38,767 nt of DNA, from contig JAICWV010000014.1 in NCBI GenBank assembly GCA_025966365.1, forward strand, positions 1 to 38,767. Direction: 5' to 3'. Every line of letters begins with the position of its first letter. Position 1 is the stretch's first letter. Shown here piece after piece: positions 22,091-37,010 of the stretch. The notes beneath the pieces are model-generated. The model had not been told where the DNA came from, made no database searches, and saw nothing but the letters and a program-made list of their open reading frames with translations. The DNA comes from Chloroflexota bacterium (lineage in GTDB: Bacteria; Chloroflexota; UBA5177). Position numbers and translations under genes: made by a program.

Positions 22091-23190
22091 TCGAGGAACA
22101 TTCCAGCGTGCTCGCCGGCGTCGCCCGCGCCAGGTCCGAGCAGCAGTTCGCCGAGGAGCTGGCGGAGCTTCGCATGGCGGATGACCGCCAGCGCCCGCCG
22201 CGCTGGGATCTCTCACCCTGGGCGGTGCGAACCTATCTCCTTGGCGGGACGCTCCCCAGCGGATTCGAAGTAAGTCCCAAGTACATCGGAAACGCGCGGC
22301 TGATGGAAATTGCCATCTCCACGTTGGCCACCGACCGGGCCCTCCTCCTGTCCGGCGTGCCGGGGACGGGCAAGTCGTGGGTGAGCGAGCATCTGGCTGC
22401 GGCTATCTCCGGAGATTCCTCGCTGATGGTGCAGGGAACCGCGGGCACCGATGAGACCGCGGTCCGCTACGGCTGGAATTATGCCCTGCTGCTTCAGAGC
22501 GGCCCGTCCGAGCAGGCGCTCGTGCCCAGTCCGGTGATGCGAGCCATGCAAACGGGGCGGCTGGCGCGCATCGAAGAGCTGACGCGCATGACGGGCGAGG
22601 TGCAGGATGCGCTGATCACCATCCTGTCGGAAAAGACGCTGCCCGTTTTCGAGCTCAACACCGAAGTTCAGGCGCACAAGGGTTTCAACGTCATCGCCAC
22701 CGCCAACAGCCGGGACCGGGCCGTCAACGAGCTGTCGAGCGCGCTGACGCGCCGCTTCAACACCGTGGTCCTTCCCCTGCCGGACACCATCGAGGAGGAA
22801 GTCGAGATCGTAGAGCGTCGTGTCGCCGCCCTGGGACGGGCGCTCGAGCTACCGGCGGAGAAGCCCGCGCTGGAAGAGATCCGCCGCGTAGTGACCATCT
22901 TCCGGGAGCTGCGCGAGGGAGTGACGCAGGACGGGCAGACCAAAGTAAAGTCGCCCACCGGCACGCTCGCCACCGCCGAGGCCATCTCCGTCATCAACAG
23001 CGGCCTTGCCATGGCTGCGTATTACGGCGACGGGACCGTCCGCGCCGCCGATCTCGCGGCCGGCCTGACCGGGACCGTTATCCGGGATCCCGTCCAGGAT
23101 CGCGTGGTGTGGCTGGAGTACCTGCAGACCGTCGTCAAGGAGCGCGACGGCTGGGCAGACTTCTACCGCGCCTGCAACGAGATGCTGTGA
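22087..23190 (+). CDS. MoxR-type AAA+ ATPase (third gene of MoxR-VWA operon)
   Basis: This 367-residue ATPase has Walker A GVPGTGKS (90-97), a Walker B-like strand LARIEEL (159-165) with Glu in place of the usual Asp, sensor 1 Asn in ATANSRD (205-211), and an arginine-finger region ALTRRF (219-224). MoxR proteins form hexamers that remodel partner complexes, usually with a VWA protein (RavA-ViaA, CbbQ-CbbO, BchI-BchD). The IEE-type Walker B is the form I recall for YehL-like members. ATG 22087 overlaps the upstream stop and the TGA overlaps the next GTG start. The frame opens further upstream, but homology starts here. Confidence 0.93.
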   Translation: MIEEHSSVLAGVARARSEQQFAEELAELRMADDRQRPPRWDLSPWAVRTYLLGGTLPSGFEVSPKYIGNARLMEIAISTLATDRALLLSGVPGTGKSWVSEHLAAAISGDSSLMVQGTAGTDETAVRYGWNYALLLQSGPSEQALVPSPVMRAMQTGRLARIEELTRMTGEVQDALITILSEKTLPVFELNTEVQAHKGFNVIATANSRDRAVNELSSALTRRFNTVVLPLPDTIEEEVEIVERRVAALGRALELPAEKPALEEIRRVVTIFRELREGVTQDGQTKVKSPTGTLATAEAISVINSGLAMAAYYGDGTVRAADLAAGLTGTVIRDPVQDRVVWLEYLQTVVKERDGWADFYRACNEML

Positions 23191-25451
23191 CCGTTACCGT
23201 CTTCGGTATCCGCCACCACGGGCCGGGCTCGGCTCGCAGCCTGGTGGCGGCGCTGACGTCGTTGATGCCGGATATCATCCTCATCGAGGGGCCGCCGGAG
23301 GGAGATGCCCTACTGCGGCATGCCGAGGGGGGTGGTTTGCAGCCGCCAGTCGCCTTGCTCGTCTATCGTCCTGACATGCCTCGTCGGGCGGCGTTCTTCC
23401 CGTTTGCCGTCTTTTCGCCGGAGTGGCAGGCAATTCGGTTCGGCCTCACCCACTCGGTCCCGGTGCGCTTTTGCGACCTTCCGCAGGCGGTGCAGCTGGC
23501 CGCCGATCCTGAGGCTGAAGACACTGCGCCGGTGGAGGAAACAACCGGCGAGCTCGGCAACCTCGCGGACAGAATTCGCGGCGACCCGATCGGCGCACTG
23601 GTGGAGGCGGCAGGCTACGAGGATTTCGAGCTGTGGTGGGAGGAGCAGGTGGAGCGGCGTGCCGATCCGCGGGGGCTCTTCGAGGCCATCATGGAAGCCA
23701 TGCGCGCCCTGCGTGCCGAGGCCGGGGTCGGCGACGAGCGAGAGGAACGGCGTGAGGCACACATGCGGCGGTCTATCCGGAAGGCCGAGAAAGAGGGCTT
23801 CGAGCGCATTGCCGTGGTCTGTGGCGCCTGGCACGCCCCGGCGCTGGACGGTCCCTCCTCGGCGAAGAGCGATGCGGCAGTGCTCACAGGACTCAAACGG
23901 GTTCGGGTAGACGCCACCTGGATCCCCTGGTCGAACTTTCGCCTGGCGTACCGCAGCGGCTATGGAGCCGGAATCGTCTCGCCGGGATGGTACGCCCACC
24001 TCTGGGGCGATCCCGAGAACGCAACGGTGGGCTGGATCGTCCGGTCGGCCCATCTGCTCCGCCGGGAGGGCCTTGACGCGCCCGCGAGCAGTGTGATCGA
24101 CGCCGTGCGGCTCGGGGATACTCTGGCGGCACTCCGGGATCGCCCCAATCCCGGCCTGAGCGAGCTGAGCGAGTCCATCCGGACCGTCCTCTGCGCCGGC
24201 CATGGCGCTCCCATGCAGCTCATTCGGCGGCAGCTGGAAGTGGGAGAGGTGATGGGGACGGTCCCGGAAACTGTCTCCCGCGTGCCCCTGCAATTGGATC
24301 TGGAGCGGGAGCAGCGGCGGCTGCGACTGCACGCCGAAGAATCGCGGAGAAGGCTTGATCTGGATCTGCGGCGCGATCTCGACCGCGATCGGAGTGTTCT
24401 GCTGCACCGGCTGAGGCTCCTGAACATTCCCTGGGGCGCCCTTCAGGAGAAGGAGATGCTCACGGCGCGGTCAATTCGGCGGGGCACCTTCCACGAGCTC
24501 TGGCAGCTGCAATGGCACGTCGAGCTCGTCCTGCTGGTGATCGAGCGCACTATCTGGGGAAATACGCTCGGCGATGCCGCGGAAGCGTTCGTCGAGCACG
24601 AGGCCGAGGCGGCAGAGCTTCCTGGACTGACCGAGCTGCTGCATGGTGCCACCGTCGCCAACCTGTCGGGAGCCATCGCGAGCCTGCTCCAGCGGGTGCA
24701 GGCAAAGGCGGCGGTGGCCACCGACGTTCGCCATCTCCTGGCAGCCTTCCCACCGCTGGCCCAGGTGGTTCGCTATGGAGACGTCCGCGGGACGGAAGCG
24801 CAGCAGGTGCTGCCCATCGTCGAGGCGCTCTTCGAGCGAGCGCTCATCGGTCTGCCGGGTGCCTGCACGAGCCTGGACGACGCAGCCGCAGCCGAGATAG
24901 TGACCCTGATGTCTGGTGCCGGCGACGCCCTGTTACTCCTTGACGCCAGCGAGTTGCACGGCGAGTGGCGGGTGCTGCTCCTGCGTCTGGGCCAGCTCCA
25001 GAGTGTTCATCCGCTGGTGCGCGGCTGGTGCTGCCGCCGCGCGCTGGAGCAGCGCAGCATCGACACCGGCGAGCTGGCCCGTCTTGCCCGCATTGCCCTC
25101 TCCCCGGCCGGCTCCGCGTCCGATGCGGCGGCATGGCTGCAGGGGCTCCTTCGCGGCAGCGGGCTCGCCCTGCTTCACCAGGACGGGCTGTGGGTGGCGC
25201 TGGATAGCTGGCTCCAGCGGCTCGACGCCGAAACTTTCACCGCGACTCTGCCGCTGGTCCGGCGGGCCTTCTCCGGATTCCAGGCGCCCGAGCGCCGGGC
25301 CATGGGCGAGAAGGTGGCGCGGCTGCGCAACAGCGAGACCGGCCAGAGCGAGCGAGAAGACGGAGGGACGCCCATCGACCGCGAGCGAGCCCGACTTGTG
25401 CTTCCGGTGCTGGCGCACATCCTGGGAGGGGATGCCGATGCCAATCGATGA
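23187..25451 (+). CDS. DUF5682-family protein (fourth gene of MoxR-VWA operon)
   Basis: This 754-residue protein starts at GTG 23187, overlapping the previous stop (GTGA). Its N-terminal ~220 residues have ordered motifs: GIRHHGPGSAR (7-17), a LIEGPPEGD strand end (32-40), FCDLP (95-99) and VVCGAWHAPAL (210-220). That order is reminiscent of the TraB/ChaN/EreA/TIKI superfamily of hydrolases, where conserved His and Glu line the active site. This link is my inference. The remaining ~530 residues are helical, with a charged stretch near 370-410 (LDLEREQRRLRLHAEESRRR). E. coli YehM is the counterpart I recall. It is the likely effector or substrate of the AAA-VWA pair. Confidence 0.88.
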   Translation: MTVTVFGIRHHGPGSARSLVAALTSLMPDIILIEGPPEGDALLRHAEGGGLQPPVALLVYRPDMPRRAAFFPFAVFSPEWQAIRFGLTHSVPVRFCDLPQAVQLAADPEAEDTAPVEETTGELGNLADRIRGDPIGALVEAAGYEDFELWWEEQVERRADPRGLFEAIMEAMRALRAEAGVGDEREERREAHMRRSIRKAEKEGFERIAVVCGAWHAPALDGPSSAKSDAAVLTGLKRVRVDATWIPWSNFRLAYRSGYGAGIVSPGWYAHLWGDPENATVGWIVRSAHLLRREGLDAPASSVIDAVRLGDTLAALRDRPNPGLSELSESIRTVLCAGHGAPMQLIRRQLEVGEVMGTVPETVSRVPLQLDLEREQRRLRLHAEESRRRLDLDLRRDLDRDRSVLLHRLRLLNIPWGALQEKEMLTARSIRRGTFHELWQLQWHVELVLLVIERTIWGNTLGDAAEAFVEHEAEAAELPGLTELLHGATVANLSGAIASLLQRVQAKAAVATDVRHLLAAFPPLAQVVRYGDVRGTEAQQVLPIVEALFERALIGLPGACTSLDDAAAAEIVTLMSGAGDALLLLDASELHGEWRVLLLRLGQLQSVHPLVRGWCCRRALEQRSIDTGELARLARIALSPAGSASDAAAWLQGLLRGSGLALLHQDGLWVALDSWLQRLDAETFTATLPLVRRAFSGFQAPERRAMGEKVARLRNSETGQSEREDGGTPIDRERARLVLPVLAHILGGDADANR

Positions 25452-26752: not shown

Positions 26753-29488
26753 GTGGAATCACCTCAGCCGCCATCCTTTGCCGACCTGCTGAAGCTGTAC
26801 CGCACCGGCGCGTGTCTCACGCAGGAGGAGCTGGCGGAGCGAGCCAACTTGAGCGCCCGGTCGATCAGCGATCTGGAACGCGGCATCAAGCAGCGGCCCC
26901 ACCGGTCGACGGTTGATCTGATCGTTGCCGCCCTTGATCTGACGTCGGAGGAGCGAGAGGAGCTGGAGGAAAGCATCCAGCGACGGCGTGGCGCCTACCG
27001 CATCGTCGGCTCGGCCAGTAGGAACACTCCTCCCACCACGGTACCGGTGCCGCCCACGCCGTTGGTGGGACGCGAGCGAGACCTGGCCGAAGCAGTACAC
27101 CGGCTCCGCTGGGGCGGTGTCCGGATGCTGACGATCATCGGACCCGGGGGCGTCGGCAAGACGCGACTGGGCATCGCCATGGCCCACGCACTCGAGGGTG
27201 ATGCCCAGGACGGAGTGTTCTATGTACCGCTAGCTCCGCTGCGCGATGCGGACCTGATCGCCTTGACGCTTTTGCGCGCCCTTGAGCTGCGGCAGACCAG
27301 CGGCCGACCCGCGGACGAAATACTGATTAGCGCGCTTCGGAAGCGAGACATGATGCTCGTACTGGACAACTTCGAGCACCTGCTGAGCGCAACGGACCTC
27401 CTCTCGCGAATGCTCCACGAGTGCCCTCGGCTCAGGCTGGTGGTGACCAGTCGCACAGCGCTGAAGATTCAGGGAGAACAGCGCTTTGAGCTGGCTCCGC
27501 TGGATCTGCCAGGGCCTGAGCAGTTGGCCAATCTCGATACACTCGCCGGCTATCCGGCGGTGGAGCTCTTCGTCGAGCGCGCGAGGGCGATCAAGCGCAG
27601 CTTCGAGCTTTCCGAGGCGAACTTGCGGACCGTCGTCGAGATCTGCTCGCGGCTGGACGGGTTGCCGCTAGCCATCGAGCTCGCGGCCGCGCGCATCAAC
27701 ACCCTCACGCCTCAAGCCCTCCTCATGCGACTCGACCAACGGCTCCGGGTGCTGACCGATGGAGTGAAGGATCTGCCCGACCGGCAGCGCACCATGTCTG
27801 ACGCCATTGCCTGGAGCTATCACCTGCTCGATGCGCCCGCACAACGTCTCTTCCGGAGGCTCTCCATCTTTGCCGGCGGTTGGAGTCTGGACGCGGCCGA
27901 GTGGGTCGATCGGCACCAGGGTGCCGTCCTGCTGCGAGATCTCGACGCGCTGGTGGACAGCAGCATGATCCAGGGGCGGGAGACGGCCGATGGAGAGCCC
28001 CGCTACTCCATGCTCGAGACGGTGCGCGAGTACGGCGCGGCGCAGCTCGAAGCCGAGGGAGCGCTGGATGAGGTACGGGAGGCACATGCGTCGTACTTCC
28101 ACGAGCTGGCAGAACGTGCATTGGTCGAGCTGACCCGCCCGGAGGCGGACATCTGGCTCACCCGGCTCAAGCACGAGGAGGGCAACCTCAGGGCAGCGTT
28201 GCGGTGGCTGGCGGATACCGAACGCATTCAGGAAGGATTGAGTCTTGCCGGTGCCCTCTGGCGCTTCTGGTATACCCGGGGGTCCTTTTCTGAGGGCCGC
28301 AGCTGGCTCTCCCGCTTTCTGGAGCCGGCAGGCGCGGGTCAAGTCGAGCCGGCGCTGCGCGCCCGCGCGTGCTTTGGACTGGGCGCCATGGCCTACTCAC
28401 AGTCGGATTTCGATACCGCTCGAGCGCAGTACGACGAGAGCCTGGCCCTGTGGCGGGGGCTGGGCGACGACGCCGGCGTCGCGGCCGCCCTTAACGGTCT
28501 CGGTACCGTTGCCATCAGTACTGGCGACTATGCGCGTGCCGAGCGTCTCCTCAGCGAGTGCGTGGAATTGCGGCGTCGCGACAGGGACCGATTCGGGCTC
28601 GCCGCCGCGCTCAATAACCTCGCAAACGCGGCGCGCTACCAAGGAGACCTGCAGCGGGCGGCGGCACTCTATGACGAGAGCCTGGAGATCCATGCAGAGG
28701 GCACCGCTCCTCTCGGTGCCGCTGCCACGCTGAACAACCTGGCGCAGCTCATGCTGCTTCGAGGCAACTACCAACGCGCCCGTGAGCTGTCCGAGCAAGC
28801 CCTCGCTCTCGCGCGGGAGTTCGACATGAAGTTCGGAGCTGCCCAGGCACTCGGTGACCTCGGGAGTCTCGCCATCGAGCTCGGCGACCTCAAGAGTGCG
28901 GAGGAACGGTACGACCAGGCGCTGGAGATCTATAGGGAGATCGGGGACAAGTCCGGTACCGGCCTGGTGCTCGTCAATCAGGCGAATCTCGCGCGAGCGC
29001 GGCATGAGTACGGCCGTGCCCGCACGCTCGCGCTCGAAAGCCTCCAGATCCAGCGGGAGGTCCGTGACGAGCGCCATATAGCGTACGGCCTTCGCTACCT
29101 GGGTGACATCGCCCGGGAGCAGGGGGAGTATGCCGAGGCGGCGGAGCACTACCGTGAGGGGCTTCGTCTTGCTGCGAGGATTCATTTCCTGGTGGGCGTG
29201 GCTGAGTGCCTGGAACACAACGGCTGGCTGCTGGCGGCCCAGCGAGGGGGGCAGGGGCCCGCGCTCCTCGGGGCGGCGCACTCTCTCCGCGAATCGTTGG
29301 GGATGGTGCTTACGCCGATGGAGCGACCCCAGCATGACCGTGCGCTCACCGACCTCCGGAACACCCTGAACGAGGACTCGTTCCGCCGGAACTGGGAGCG
29401 CGGACGCGCCATGGGGTGGCAGGACGCGGTAACCGAGATCCTGGAGCGTCCCCATCAGCCGGGTCAGGATGCGGCACCAGCCACGTAG
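26753..29488 (+). CDS. HTH-STAND ATPase-TPR regulator
   Basis: This 911-residue signal-transduction ATPase has an N-terminal XRE-type helix-turn-helix (~10-65; TQEELAERANLSARSISDLE). An NB-ARC/STAND NTPase follows, with LVGRERD (104-110), Walker A GPGGVGKT (130-137), Walker B MLVLDNFEHL (201-210), TSR (232-234) and GLPLAIELAAAR (303-314). A winged-helix part and at least seven TPR-like repeats fill ~490-850 (for example YDESLALWRGLGDDAGVAAA). Ligand binding to the TPRs is expected to trigger ATP-driven oligomerisation and DNA binding. GTG 26753 has no strong ribosome site. It follows the MoxR-VWA operon by 166 bp in the same direction and could regulate it or be read with it. Confidence 0.92.
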   Translation: MESPQPPSFADLLKLYRTGACLTQEELAERANLSARSISDLERGIKQRPHRSTVDLIVAALDLTSEEREELEESIQRRRGAYRIVGSASRNTPPTTVPVPPTPLVGRERDLAEAVHRLRWGGVRMLTIIGPGGVGKTRLGIAMAHALEGDAQDGVFYVPLAPLRDADLIALTLLRALELRQTSGRPADEILISALRKRDMMLVLDNFEHLLSATDLLSRMLHECPRLRLVVTSRTALKIQGEQRFELAPLDLPGPEQLANLDTLAGYPAVELFVERARAIKRSFELSEANLRTVVEICSRLDGLPLAIELAAARINTLTPQALLMRLDQRLRVLTDGVKDLPDRQRTMSDAIAWSYHLLDAPAQRLFRRLSIFAGGWSLDAAEWVDRHQGAVLLRDLDALVDSSMIQGRETADGEPRYSMLETVREYGAAQLEAEGALDEVREAHASYFHELAERALVELTRPEADIWLTRLKHEEGNLRAALRWLADTERIQEGLSLAGALWRFWYTRGSFSEGRSWLSRFLEPAGAGQVEPALRARACFGLGAMAYSQSDFDTARAQYDESLALWRGLGDDAGVAAALNGLGTVAISTGDYARAERLLSECVELRRRDRDRFGLAAALNNLANAARYQGDLQRAAALYDESLEIHAEGTAPLGAAATLNNLAQLMLLRGNYQRARELSEQALALAREFDMKFGAAQALGDLGSLAIELGDLKSAEERYDQALEIYREIGDKSGTGLVLVNQANLARARHEYGRARTLALESLQIQREVRDERHIAYGLRYLGDIAREQGEYAEAAEHYREGLRLAARIHFLVGVAECLEHNGWLLAAQRGGQGPALLGAAHSLRESLGMVLTPMERPQHDRALTDLRNTLNEDSFRRNWERGRAMGWQDAVTEILERPHQPGQDAAPAT

Positions 29489-29961
29489 TTCAACAGGGAG
29501 TAGAGTTCGTAGAACCGTTTCGGGTTGTTTCCAACCACTTTGACGGTTTTCACACCGGTTCGGGTATAGACCGAGACGAACGCCGTCGCCAGATCGCTCG
29601 TGGGGTGCTTGGGGATGATTCTGGCCGGCATCGAAAAGAAGTGCTCTGCATTCGCGAGTCTGAGCAGCCCTGTCAGCGCGATCGGGTACACCTTCTCCCG
29701 TGATTTGATGAGATGGATGGGGCTGGATCGCTGCTCCTTCTTCAGGCTCACCCGGCCATCGGTGTAGATGGTGACGGTGAACGAGCCGAGGGTCGAGAAC
29801 CCTCCCTCCAGCCCAAAGCGAAAGGCAGGACTCCTCGGGTTGGCCGGCAGCTGCCGCACAACCGGTGGCGCGGGCTGAGCGGCCTGGGCCACGGCACCGG
29901 GTAAAAGCATGCCGAAGATGAGGGCTATACCGACGAGGACGACCGGGCGGAGTGCTGACAT
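29464..29961 (-). CDS. Secreted small beta-sheet protein, DUF6438-like
   Basis: This 165-residue exported protein has a signal peptide (PVVLVGIALIFGMLLPGAVA) cleaved near residue 28. The mature part has strands FTVTIYTDGRVSLKKE, a helix LTGLLRLANAEHFF, then FVSVYTRTGVKTVKVV and a final helix. This resembles DUF6438-like small secreted proteins, with low certainty. ATG 29961 has GAGGAGG 8 nt upstream; the ATG at 29976 lies before that site. Its last 25 nt overlap the end of the STAND gene on the other strand. Confidence 0.7.
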   Translation of the reverse strand: MSALRPVVLVGIALIFGMLLPGAVAQAAQPAPPVVRQLPANPRSPAFRFGLEGGFSTLGSFTVTIYTDGRVSLKKEQRSSPIHLIKSREKVYPIALTGLLRLANAEHFFSMPARIIPKHPTSDLATAFVSVYTRTGVKTVKVVGNNPKRFYELYSLLNYVAGAAS

Positions 29962-29990
29962 GGACTGCCTCCTCATACCTGAGTGGTGCG

Positions 29991-30022
29991 GACGGGGAAG
30001 GAACGTCGGTTCCTTCCCCGTC
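29991..30022 (-). terminator. Hairpin after the large secreted-protein gene
   Basis: A perfect 14-bp stem (29991-30004 with 30009-30022) closes on a GTCG tetraloop, 12 nt after the stop of the minus-strand gene at 30034. No T tract follows. Confidence 0.8.
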
Positions 30023-30033
30023 CATGATCTGTA

Positions 30034-32388
30034 CTACTGGCAGTAGGTCGCTACGATCGAGCCGGTGCCCGGAGACACGGGGCTCGCGGCGTAGCCGGGG
30101 TTGGTCCTGACCACGACGATCTTGGTGATCTTGCCCGACATGGTGCTACCGTTCTTGCTGACCCGATCGGTTACAGCAATCCCCATGTAGCTGGGTACGC
30201 CGGCTGGCGGGACCACGCTGTTTCCGGTCGTGGTCGTGAAGGTGCCGCCGCATACCGGCGGGGTACTGCTCGGCACGGCCATGAACCCCTTGTATGAGGA
30301 CGGTGCCTGCCCGCCGGAGAGCGAGTTCAGCTGATACCAGCTGTCACTCCACCACGTCACCTTCGTGCTCGATGTCGCGCCGGCCACGGTCCTGTCGCCC
30401 AGGCTGAAGGCGCCTCGGCTGAGGAACCCGAAGACGATAGCGGACGCAGTGCCGGATGACGGCAGGTAGTACGTGTCTCCGGCGAAGCCGGCCGTCACCG
30501 TCTGCGGCCCCAGGGGCACCGTGACCGGGCTGATGGTGCAGCTTGCGGCTCCGGTCACGTCAGTTGGGCCGGTGGTACAGCTCTGGCTGCTCGCCCCGGT
30601 CCCAAGCGTCAGGGTCAGGGTGCGGCCCATCAGGGGGATTGCTCCGTCTTCCGTCAGGACGCCGGAGAGATGCGCAACGTTGCCCCCGGCCGCGATGGCC
30701 ACGTCACCGGTGTAGGAAATCGCGCTTTCCTCCCTGGTGACCACGATGTTGGCCGTCGTGGTGACGTCCGCATGATGCCCGTCATTCACGGAGAAGGTAA
30801 CCGGGTAGGTGCCAGGGGCAGCGGTCACGGTACCGGACACGGTACCGAATCCGTTCCCATGGTCCGAGAAGCTCAGCCCGGCGGGAAGTCCGCCCACCGT
30901 CATGGTGAGGGTATCGCCGGAGTTGACGTCGTCGGCCAGGATGTTGAAGCTCAGCGGATCGTTGTAATCAACCGACTGGTCGGCGATCGCGCGGAACGTC
31001 GGCGGTGAGTTCTGGACGGTGATGTTGGCATTGGCGGAAGGGAAGAAGGCAACCCCTCCGAGCTGGTCGTTCGCGGAGAAGACGCCGTTGGTGTTCATGG
31101 TGGTCCCATCGGGCTGGGCACCCGTAACCGCCACCTGGAGCACGATGCTGCCCGACGCACCGACGCCAAGGGTACCGATGGTGTAGGTGAGCTGGTTCCC
31201 GCTTTGCACCGGTGCGGGGCCGACCGAGGTGGACGAGTACCGGAGCGATGGAGCCAGGTTCACCTGCAGCGAGGCGTTGTAGGCGCCGTCGGTGCCACTG
31301 GTGTTGGCGTAATTGAATGTGAGCTGGATGCTGTCGCCGCTATTCCCCGCCACTGCGGTGGGGAGCGCGGTTTCACTCACCGTGCCGGTGGGGTCGTCTG
31401 GATGCGCGATGCCGCCATCGGTGTGGCTGTAGCTCGGTGCACAGCCGCTGTTGCCGTAGTCACCGCTGGAATCCGCGCTTCCGAGCTGATTGAGCCACTC
31501 CCACTGGAGACGGTACCTGTGACTGTTAAAGATGAGGTTCGTGCCGTCGCTATTCTTGTCGGCCGAGCCGAAGTAGAAGTTGCACTGATCTCCGTTCTCA
31601 TGGCTCCCGTCGCCGTTGTACCAGGCGTCGAGTCCGGGATCGCTTACCGCCTCGAACTGCTCGTGCGAGCTGGTGTCGGCCGCGGAGTCGGCGACCGGAT
31701 TGTTCGGCGCGGTCCCGACGACGCAGCTGCTGATGCCGGCGGAGATGAACGCGTAGACGATGTCCTGGTCCGACCAGTACGTGTGGTAGGCGCAGAAAGC
31801 GGGGCCACTCGGCGCGGTGGGGAAGGTGCACTCAGACGAATCACATTCCTGGATCCCGAATCCCGTGTATACGAAGTACTCGGCGTTGCTGCCCGACACC
31901 CAGCTCGAATTGGCGGTCCGTGCTCGCTGTATGGCGTTGCGGATATCACCGTCGTTGAGCGGATCAGCCTGCGATCCGGCGTGCGGATAGGCGGTGGTAT
32001 CGACCCAGGAGCCACCATAGCTGCACGAGTTCTGGATCGGTCCATGACTGACCACCGGGTCGGTGGGGTTGGCGGGATCGAAGGACAGCGGCGTCAGGAC
32101 GTTGTAGTACTTGGTGCCGCACACATCCTGAAAGTACTGCTGCATGAGCCCCTCGAACTGGGCATCGGTGTAGGCGCTCCCCGACGGCTCGAACGACCGC
32201 CCGGATGGCAGCCAGAATATCAGGTAATTGGTCGGATTGGGCATCACGTTGCCCCCGTGATAGGTGAGCTCACCCGTGACCAGGCCGTCCGACCGGATTG
32301 CGGCCGAGGCCGGGTGAGCCTGGGTCTGGAACAGAAGCACGATCAGAGCGGCAATGAGAATGCTCTTTCGGCGCGGTAGATGGTTCAT
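30034..32388 (-). CDS. Large secreted protein with HEQFE motif and Ig/cadherin-like repeats
   Basis: This 784-residue exported protein has a signal peptide ([21 protein letters not shown], residues 9-29). Residues ~35-320 form a domain with THGG-like and YHGG segments, many cysteines, and a [11 protein letters not shown] motif (241-251) followed by ENGDQC (264-269). This resembles a group of secreted proteins related to plant EXORDIUM/PHI-1 and to HExxE-bearing putative metalloproteins; the relation is by eye. Residues ~335-480 look like a DUF11-type beta domain, ~485-575 like a putative-Ig/cadherin-like domain ([20 protein letters not shown]), ~580-660 like another Ig-like domain, and the end is a Cys-containing beta module. 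ATG 32388 has AAGGAGA 11 nt upstream. Enzymatic activity is unproven. Confidence 0.78.
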
Positions 32389-32669
32389 GGAACTGGCTCT
32401 CCTTCCACATGTATGGCGCTTGCCGTTGCCACAGAAGCCGGCGTATGGCCAGTGTGCCCTGGTCGAGAGGCGATGACCACGAACATCCACACGACAAAAC
32501 CACACGTTCTGCGGAGGTATCAAGGGAGCAGCAGCGGGACAATATCTGCCTGGGGGAGAAGCGATCAGCTGGAACACTCGTCCCCGATGTTTGTTTTGCT
32601 GCACAGCGTTGTTGTAATCGGCGAGCGCTATCCTGTGGGCGAGAGCTAATAAGAGAGAAGGAACCTTCC

Positions 32670-34682: not shown

Positions 34683-37010
34683 CTACTTCCGTCCCAGCGC
34701 GTACGCGATCGCCTTTTCAGCCGGCATGCTGTAGCCTGCGTGCCGCGTGCTCTGCCACCGAGCCGTTCCCACGGCTTGCTCCGTACCGTTGAGAAAGTGC
34801 CCAGGAATCGCCAGGTCGAAGAGCCCGGGGTGGGCAGCGATTGTCTCCCTGACCGCAGCGGCGGCCCCGGCGAGGGTGGCCGCTCGATTGTGATCTGCTT
34901 GCGCAGCAGCCACCGCGGCCAGCGTGTACAGTCCATCCGCAATCCCCTGGTGCTCCTGCAGCACTGAGACCGTCAACAGCGCACCCCGGGCGAGGTGACC
35001 GGCCTCATCAACCTCGCCCCTCGCCAGGGCAGCGTGTGCCAGCACGTTGTCGACGCGAGCAGCGAAGACCTGATCACCAATCTGGCGGTATACCCGACCT
35101 CCTTCCTGAAGAGCCGCCACCGCCTCGTCACTGAAGCCGGCGTGCAGGAGTGCGGTTCCCAGGTTCAAGTACGACGTGCCGAGCTGCCAGCTCACCCCAA
35201 GTTGCCGACAGATGACCACCGATTCGCGAAACGGCTCCAATGCATCGACGTAGCAGGCGTGCATCATGGCCACCATTCCCCCGATCGTGAGGGCGTTCCG
35301 GAGATCCATTCGATCCTCGCTTTGCTGAGCCAGTTCATATGCCTCCCTTGCAAGAGTGGCCATGCGTTCGTGGTCGCCCTGTGGAAATGCCAATGCACCC
35401 GCTGCCCACATTGCCTTGGCTCGAAGCGAGGCGGGGGCAGACCCCGCCATAGCCACAGCTGCGTCCACCCACCGTCGCCCCTCAGCGAACTCGCCCAGAT
35501 GTCTCCAGTAACGCCAGAGTGCGACAGCGTATCGGAGGGCAATCACGGTTTTGCGGCTCTCGAGAGCCCAACCCATGCCGGCGCGCAAGTTGGCGCGCTC
35601 GATATCCAGGAGCTGGAACCAGCGTTCGTGCCCAGCCCGCACAAGGTTAGGCTCGGCTTCTTCGGCGAGCTGCAGGAAGTGAAGCGCGTGACGGCGAGCC
35701 GTCTCTAGATTTTCTCCGGCTTCGACCAGACGTTGGGCTGCGTATTCTCTGACGATGTCCGGCATGTCGTAACGTGCAACCGGGTTGTCATGGTCGAGCG
35801 CAACCAGACTCTGGTCCACCAGTGCGCTGATATCTTCAAGCGGACTGCCAGTGTCGCGACCGGCGCCGCAGACGCTGTCCAGATCGTCGAGGCTCCAGCC
35901 ACCCACGAACACCGAAAGGCGCCGAAACAGCACTTGAGCCGGAGCATCAAGGAGGTCAAAGCTCCAGGCCACGGTATCGCGGATTGTACGCTGGCGCACC
36001 GGAAGGTCGACAGGTCCTCCCACCAGAAGATCGAGCCGGTGCTCAAGCTGTCGGCGTATGGAAGCCAGAGGCGCATGCTTCACCCGGGCAGCTGCCAGCT
36101 CAATTGCCAGGGGCAGGCCGTCCAGCCTGCGACAGATCTCAAGCACGAGAGACGCACTCGTCGAGTCGAGCTGCAGATCCGGTCTCACCGCATGTGCCCG
36201 GTGCCAGAAGAGCGCCGTCGCCGGGGCTCCCAGGATGTCGTGCGATGGGTGGTCGCCGATCTGGGCGGGAGTCTCGAGGGGAGGCACCGGAAACTCATGC
36301 TCTCCTCGCAGCCGCAGCGCGCTTCGACTGGTGACCAGGAACGAGATCTGCGGGCAGCTCAAAAGCAGTGAGTAGACCAGTGGCGCCGCTGCCGTCACGT
36401 GCTCGAACGTGTCCAGCACGACAAGTGCCTGTCGTTCGGCCAGGTGTTGGCGCAGAAGCTGCTCGAAATTCGGCCCGGTCTCAACTGCGCCGACGGCCTT
36501 CGCAAGCTCGGGCGCGACAAGCGACGCGCTCTTCAGCTCACCCAACGATACGAAGTAGACGCCATCCCGGAATGTAGGCTGGGCTGCTCGGGCCGCTTCC
36601 AGTGCCAATCGTGTCTTGCCGATGCCGCCGGGACCGGTCAATGTCAGCAGCCGCACGTCGCCGGGCAACAGGGTCGTATTGATGCTTGCCAGTTCCTTCT
36701 CACGACCGAGAAGGGGTGTTGGGAAAGCCGGCAAGACAGTCTGTCGAGGGCCCGATAACGGTCCGACAGCGCGTCCGCGCGCCACCGCGTCGAATGCACG
36801 ACGTTCTTGTTCGTCCAGATTCAGGACGGATGCCAGTCTTCGAGCGGTGTCATGGTGGATCCCGGCGCGTAGTCCGCGCTCGATGTCGCTCACGGTACGC
36901 GCACTGATCCCCGCTCGCTCCGCGAGCTCCTCCTGAGTCAGACCAGCCGCCAGGCGGAGGCGCTTGAGCGACGTGCTAAGCGCGGTCTCGGTTTCGTATC
37001 TCATGTCCAC
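34683..37010 (-). CDS. HTH-STAND ATPase regulator (second copy type)
   Basis: This 775-residue protein has the same plan as the regulator at 26753. An XRE helix-turn-helix (~12-65; TQEELAERAGISARTVSDIE) is followed by LLGREKEL (100-107), Walker A GPGGIGKT (126-133), Walker B ALVVLDTFEHV (195-205, Thr in place of the usual Asn), a VTSR motif and GLPLAIELAAAR. Helical TPR-like repeats run to the end. It is more divergent and has fewer repeats than the other copy. Start GTG 37010 or ATG 37004; neither has a strong ribosome site. It is divergent from the SnoaL-NmrA pair, with a 140-bp gap, so it probably controls that pair. Confidence 0.9.
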   Translation of the reverse strand: MDMRYETETALSTSLKRLRLAAGLTQEELAERAGISARTVSDIERGLRAGIHHDTARRLASVLNLDEQERRAFDAVARGRAVGPLSGPRQTVLPAFPTPLLGREKELASINTTLLPGDVRLLTLTGPGGIGKTRLALEAARAAQPTFRDGVYFVSLGELKSASLVAPELAKAVGAVETGPNFEQLLRQHLAERQALVVLDTFEHVTAAAPLVYSLLLSCPQISFLVTSRSALRLRGEHEFPVPPLETPAQIGDHPSHDILGAPATALFWHRAHAVRPDLQLDSTSASLVLEICRRLDGLPLAIELAAARVKHAPLASIRRQLEHRLDLLVGGPVDLPVRQRTIRDTVAWSFDLLDAPAQVLFRRLSVFVGGWSLDDLDSVCGAGRDTGSPLEDISALVDQSLVALDHDNPVARYDMPDIVREYAAQRLVEAGENLETARRHALHFLQLAEEAEPNLVRAGHERWFQLLDIERANLRAGMGWALESRKTVIALRYAVALWRYWRHLGEFAEGRRWVDAAVAMAGSAPASLRAKAMWAAGALAFPQGDHERMATLAREAYELAQQSEDRMDLRNALTIGGMVAMMHACYVDALEPFRESVVICRQLGVSWQLGTSYLNLGTALLHAGFSDEAVAALQEGGRVYRQIGDQVFAARVDNVLAHAALARGEVDEAGHLARGALLTVSVLQEHQGIADGLYTLAAVAAAQADHNRAATLAGAAAAVRETIAAHPGLFDLAIPGHFLNGTEQAVGTARWQSTRHAGYSMPAEKAIAYALGRK

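Follow-up and report, generated by a model that had tools for sequence, protein, structure and literature searches.

The protein encoded at 30034-32388 of the window (the whole 38,767-nucleotide stretch that was analysed) has an N-terminal domain that is a distant homologue of Pfam family PF04674 (Phi_1), the family of plant EXORDIUM/PHI-1, as judged by sequence comparison through intermediate sequences. Structure prediction suggests that this domain likely adopts a metzincin-like fold, and we put at roughly 0.55 the probability that it is a metal-dependent hydrolase, probably a peptidase, built on that fold. The original prediction had described the domain as unassigned, which proved wrong.

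The reading frame is open for 784 residues on the minus strand, a strand that the original prediction had not given. The gene and the parts of its product are as follows; residue numbers throughout are those of the 784-residue protein unless noted.

30034..32388, minus strand: coding sequence of the 784-residue, likely secreted protein, stop codon included (open frame; relatives with 35-47% identity over the N-terminal domain).
32399..32406, minus strand: Shine-Dalgarno-like GGAAGGAG, 10 nt ahead of the ATG, as read from the sequence.
32302..32388, minus strand: probable signal peptide, residues 1-29, a hydrophobic N-terminus recognised by eye in the translation.
31396..32301, minus strand: EXORDIUM-like domain as modelled, residues 30-331 (P0002), from alignments A1 and A3 and a model with pLDDT 85.4 and pTM 0.87.
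30037..31386, minus strand: C-terminal region, about residues 335-784, probably beta/Ig-like (weak, sub-threshold Pfam matches and a phmmer match).

Judging from these features the protein is likely secreted, and extracellular or held at the cell surface. Its cysteine-rich N-terminal domain spans about residues 30-305. All three motifs quoted in the original prediction are present in the translation, its numbering of His242 and Glu246 is correct, and the "many cysteines" it mentioned amount to 8 in the modelled stretch by sequence count. The C-terminal region gave two Pfam matches, PKD_4 (E 0.0016) and Integrin_A_Ig_2 (E 0.0027), both below their own cut-offs, and residues 458-552 matched a solved adhesin chain in phmmer (E 1.5e-5). 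Because Pfam assigns this part only weakly, the proposed "three or more beta domains" stays plausible as a count. The last 128 residues (30037-30420, minus strand) matched nothing in Pfam or NCBIfam, and no further copy of them turned up in the genome. The stop codon is directly followed by an inverted repeat with perfect 15-bp arms, a 4-base loop and no T-run (29990-30023), a possible terminator. Just downstream, a small secreted-looking protein is encoded at 29464-29976 on the minus strand, with a weak DUF6438 match (E 0.00096) that falls below the cut-off. An operon with this gene was considered but found no support: no relative of it stood beside the fetched homologues, many of which had only short flanks, and the hairpin lies between the two genes.

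The family assignment depends on a chain of relatives. PF04674, whose gathering cut-off is 25 bits, did not match the window protein (P0001, P0002) at E up to 1, and the protein is therefore termed a distant homologue and not a Pfam member. Searches of Pfam, NCBIfam, PHROGs and PDB sequences with the window protein as query left its N-terminal domain without a family, and the A3 profile run against PDB reached no better than E 0.1. Relatives 35-47% identical to the modelled domain score near or above the PF04674 cut-off (for example P0005, 28.9 bits), which was exceeded in 13 of 301 Chloroflexota genomes, and 31 of the 46 members of A3 match the Pfam model at E up to 1 (best 3.6e-26). In Acidobacteriota, PF04674 matches occurred in 11 of 247 genomes, down to E 8.3e-34 and covering most of the model; those copies in the phylum that match the A3 profile score up to 118 bits with PF04674 and carry HExxE. 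The search across Chloroflexota and Actinomycetota that the original prediction had suggested found homologues of the domain in 49 of 301 genomes (tblastn) and 15 of 246 genomes (A3 profile), respectively, and the Chloroflexota matches establish the HEQFE domain as a real conserved unit. Eremiobacterota are also among the named records with an EXORDIUM-like domain. Records labelled "Proteobacteria" (L080 and L082; Centralia_MAG_377) are probably mislabelled, the match coordinates in their genome, G304, being those found in G099, a Chloroflexota genome.

With the N-terminal domain as query, tblastn hit the window's own genome with six match rows, which correspond to five genes. In all, that genome (G000; contigs C82, C87, C197 and C209; loci L001, L002, L132, L133 and L134) encodes no fewer than six EXORDIUM-like copies, which belong to several subtypes and all have HExxE; one of them is cut by the fetched stretch. 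Elsewhere some copies stand in tandem, as do two in L007, and relatives in L006, L007, L014 and L021 are joined to CarboxypepD_reg, beta-propeller or TIG domains; such fusions fit a cell-surface or extracellular role. Like EXORDIUM/PHI-1, the window protein has a cysteine-rich domain of similar length behind a signal-like N-terminal stretch, but it differs in its extra, probably beta-type, C-terminal domains.

Conservation was counted over 139 rows, reduced to 125 non-identical sequences and then to 114 representatives by clustering at 90% identity. The residues of the candidate site are:

31783..31794, minus strand: C199-A-Y-H202, at the start of a predicted strand (H202 in 113/114 and C199 in 111/114 representatives).
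31651..31665, minus strand: H242-E243-x-x-E246, at the C-terminal end of the predicted active-site-like helix (each 113/114, 1 gap).
31639..31641, minus strand: Asp250, just past the helix (D 109/114, N 4/114).
31621..31623, minus strand: Trp256 (111/114).
31582..31599, minus strand: E264-N-G-D267-Q-C269 acidic cluster (E264 112/114, D267 112/114, C269 113/114).

H202, H242, E243, E246 and C269 thus form an invariant set, present in 113 of the 114 bacterial representatives with a gap in the remaining row. Conservation of the site residues extends over four phyla or more. Alignment A1 has 28 rows, three truncated frames having been excluded together with L013, L017, L020 and the second copy in L031. 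Since 43 named loci were found with the patterns HEQ..E.. or Y[AV]IFW.., that set is biased towards the motif. The sets collected without pattern selection (tblastn, weak-match and Acidobacteriota Pfam-model sets) show the same conservation. All rows long enough to cover the site have HExxE among the Acidobacteriota sequences found with the Pfam model (26/26), and so do all 19 rows from weak-match loci, which represent 18 of 20 loci, L125 and L135 having no profile match. HExxE is also present in 31 of 32 Actinomycetota rows, a set found with an A3-derived profile and so carrying a softer bias; the exception is an N-terminal fragment.

The domain of the window protein was modelled with AlphaFold from a 46-row alignment (model 1), with the confidence values given above, and an Acidobacteriales copy (L088) from 33 rows (model 2; pLDDT 89.2, pTM 0.89). 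In both models the strands are followed by one long helix, and HExxE lies at its end. In model 1 this is helix 202-220 in P0002 numbering, bearing H213, E214 and E217, which are H242, E243 and E246 of the full protein, and in model 2 it is helix 177-193. The original prediction had made its proposal depend on His242 and Glu246 being conserved and adjacent; they are conserved in 113/114 representatives, and the two models place them four residues apart (i, i+4) on a single helix.

Structure comparison pointed to metzincins. The best VIA-align row for model 1 was the archaemetzincin-type 3lmc (Z 9.0, rmsd 3.5, 158 aligned residues), and by title 48 of its best 50 rows represent metalloproteases or ADAM ectodomains, some venom proteins being classed by protein name; 8imx, a GPI transamidase, is a non-metzincin row. 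The best row for model 2 was TACE 3e8r (Z 8.7, rmsd 4.0, 174 aligned residues). The entry 6o38, found with both models, we take to be a bacterial protease-chaperone complex; if it is so counted, the best 50 rows of model 2 are all metzincins. These scores are slightly above background, Z 7-8 being typical for models without a clear match. Foldseek likewise ranked TACE/ADAM17 first for model 1 (E 8.7e-3, probability 0.63) and the snake-venom metalloprotease 3k7n first for model 2 (E 2.3e-3, probability 0.99), with no match at E < 0.001 for either model and TM-scores of about 0.2-0.4 for the top hits. HHalign comparison of the trimmed alignment with Reprolysin_4 (13 rows) and M54 (14 rows) found no similarity, the scores equalling those of shuffled controls. 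A probability of 99 obtained with the untrimmed alignment was discarded as an artefact, as it came from only 10-22 aligned columns in a ragged tail and was lost on trimming. A caspase-like reading of the C-x-x-H motif, for which Foldseek listed some caspase rows, was also set aside; no caspase appeared in the VIA-align best 50, an absence that by itself excludes no family or fold class, and the cysteines of the C-x-x-H domain look like disulfide partners.

The likeness to metzincins (reprolysin/ADAM and archaemetzincin) thus lies in the predicted fold, with an HE pair on a long helix following the strands. The metzincin signature is HExxHxxGxxH/D, with glycine at H+7, and the end of the helix in our models coincides with the position of that glycine. 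The domain differs in having HExxE (113/114), with Glu in place of the second His, mostly T or S and not Gly at +7, and a variable +10 position without a conserved ligand. Nor is a Met, as in the metzincin Met-turn, found among the invariant or near-invariant columns, and a prodomain is not evident.

The two invariant histidines, the Glu of the HE pair and the further acids, placed on a metzincin-like fold, suggest a single metal ion with E243 as the base. In such an enzyme one catalytic metal, for which zinc is the natural guess, would be bound at the end of the long helix. H242 and E246 would supply two of its ligands, and the remaining coordination would come from at least one of H202, D250, E264 and D267. 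E243 would act as the general base that activates water. The substrate would be peptide bonds in extracellular proteins, and the C-terminal beta domains may anchor the protein to cells or to its substrate. The absence of the metzincin second His and third ligand means that the site would be either a variant one or a metal site without catalytic function. The Foldseek E-values, the low TM-scores, the near-background Z, the null HHalign result and the absent metzincin signature were all counted against the metal-enzyme reading. The earlier suggestion that HExxE, the following Asp and the acidic cluster make a metal site is nonetheless strengthened, indirectly, by conservation in at least four phyla and by a predicted fold like that of zinc metalloproteases, and the site is putative.

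Zincin-type families whose site residues have been replaced, such as CLCA and the inactive ADAMs, offer a parallel. In those HExxH families the substitution occurs sporadically, whereas in the bacterial EXORDIUM-like domains HExxE is the rule. We take the CLCA motif to be HExxH, and its rendering as HEXXE may be loose wording. That rendering appears in the excerpted text of one paper (PMC6851300). Substituted zincin sites are documented and inactive members persist in such families, according to the excerpted parts of a zincin survey that began from HExxH proteins, and in whose main text PF04674 is absent (PMC3650047).

Three other explanations were weighed against a metal-dependent hydrolase. 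The site might bind metal, calcium or zinc, in a structural or adhesive capacity, making the protein a secreted binding domain followed by Ig-like domains, comparable to the proteolytically dead ADAMs. The missing canonical second His and third ligand would be in keeping with this, as would the acids E246, D250, E264 and D267, acidic residues being as well suited to calcium as to zinc, and the fusions to beta-propeller, TIG and CarboxypepD_reg domains, which suit surface proteins. E243, however, occupies the catalytic-base position of HExxH enzymes and is kept in 113/114 representatives, where drift would be expected if the site were purely structural, and we regard this explanation as rather unlikely. 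That the likeness to metzincins reflects only a common alpha/beta arrangement, the fold being new and the conserved cluster having an unrelated role, would agree with the lack of any Foldseek match at E < 0.001, the low TM-scores and the lack of profile similarity to two metzincin families. But two models with different lead sequences returned best-50 lists composed almost wholly of metzincins and both placed HExxE on a long helix following strands, which makes a new fold very improbable.

The Glu/Asp cluster could instead be a metal-free or metal-assisted active site for a glycan or ester in cell-wall or exopolysaccharide material. Bacterial and fungal esterases do occur in the Foldseek lists of both models, and plant EXO has been linked with the properties of the cell wall and with extracellular carbon status in the excerpted text of two papers (PMC2661892, PMC3691544). 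The esterase (ChoE) rows, however, have probabilities of at most 0.20, no esterase is among the VIA-align best 50, and no carbohydrate-active Pfam family matched, so that a glycan or ester substrate appears improbable.

A more far-reaching reading concerns the whole EXORDIUM family. Its ancestors would be metalloenzymes secreted by bacteria, with a metzincin-like fold and an HExxE metal site, and EXO/EXL of land plants would have kept the fold and disulfides, lost the metal residues and become pseudo-peptidases that bind, and do not cut, apoplastic peptides or glycoproteins in growth. We offer this tentatively, at somewhat less than even odds. The Arabidopsis EXO sequence used here is an approximate text, provisional in its single residues. 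It matches the whole of PF04674 with E 8.2e-126 and is thus a family member overall. An Acidobacteriota profile matched it with E 2.6e-22 (database size set to 20,000) and the A3 profile with E 0.002. In the Acidobacteriota-profile alignment 'laheleeavtDpdlnaWyds' stands opposite 'LASLLAGTATNPFGNGYYQG' of the approximate EXO, and the C..H and the later Cys are kept. Where the bacterial members keep HExxE, EXO has SLLAG; the site is thus lost in this approximate sequence. Four versions of the EXO text altered at the site scored 420.0 with PF04674 when HE was inserted, 419.2 with E inserted, 415.7 with D inserted and 415.0 with H removed, against 419.4 unaltered. The Pfam model is therefore indifferent between HE and SL, and the putative loss of the plant site depends on the approximate text. 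In a tree of 111 rows, which excluded rows shorter than 200 aa, EXO was placed beside two Acidobacteriota rows (99/75), within a 14-row clade (100/97) of 12 Acidobacteriota, 1 Actinomycetota and EXO; its exact position is unsure owing to its long branch and unusual composition. A text search of the literature found no plant EXO peptides.

EXORDIUM has been studied as a brassinosteroid-controlled plant growth protein. The EXO paper of 2009, as excerpted, reported a single homologue among bacteria, in Solibacter usitatus. It had found none elsewhere in bacteria, nor in archaea, fungi, animals or protists, and had seen no resemblance to functionally characterised proteins (PMC2661892). A 2026 paper, in its excerpted text, still gives EXORDIUM an "unknown biochemical function" (PMC13103426), and the two papers bear out the earlier remark that the family has no established activity. 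Among the matches listed in the open-access literature, none proposed a link between EXORDIUM and metzincins or metalloproteases. If the bacterial relatives are metal-dependent peptidases, a small bacterial domain would give a route to the metal, to the substrate and then to the ligands of a plant version lacking the site. It would also add to the metzincin-like folds an HExxE branch that surveys based on the HExxH motif would overlook.

Elsewhere in the window, the gene is flanked by two HTH and AAA/NB-ARC-type regulators at 26753-29488 (plus strand) and 34683-37010 (minus strand), the first with clear TPR repeats. A full-length DUF5682 protein (PF18934, E 5e-244), unrelated to the EXORDIUM-like gene, is encoded at 23109-25451 on the plus strand.
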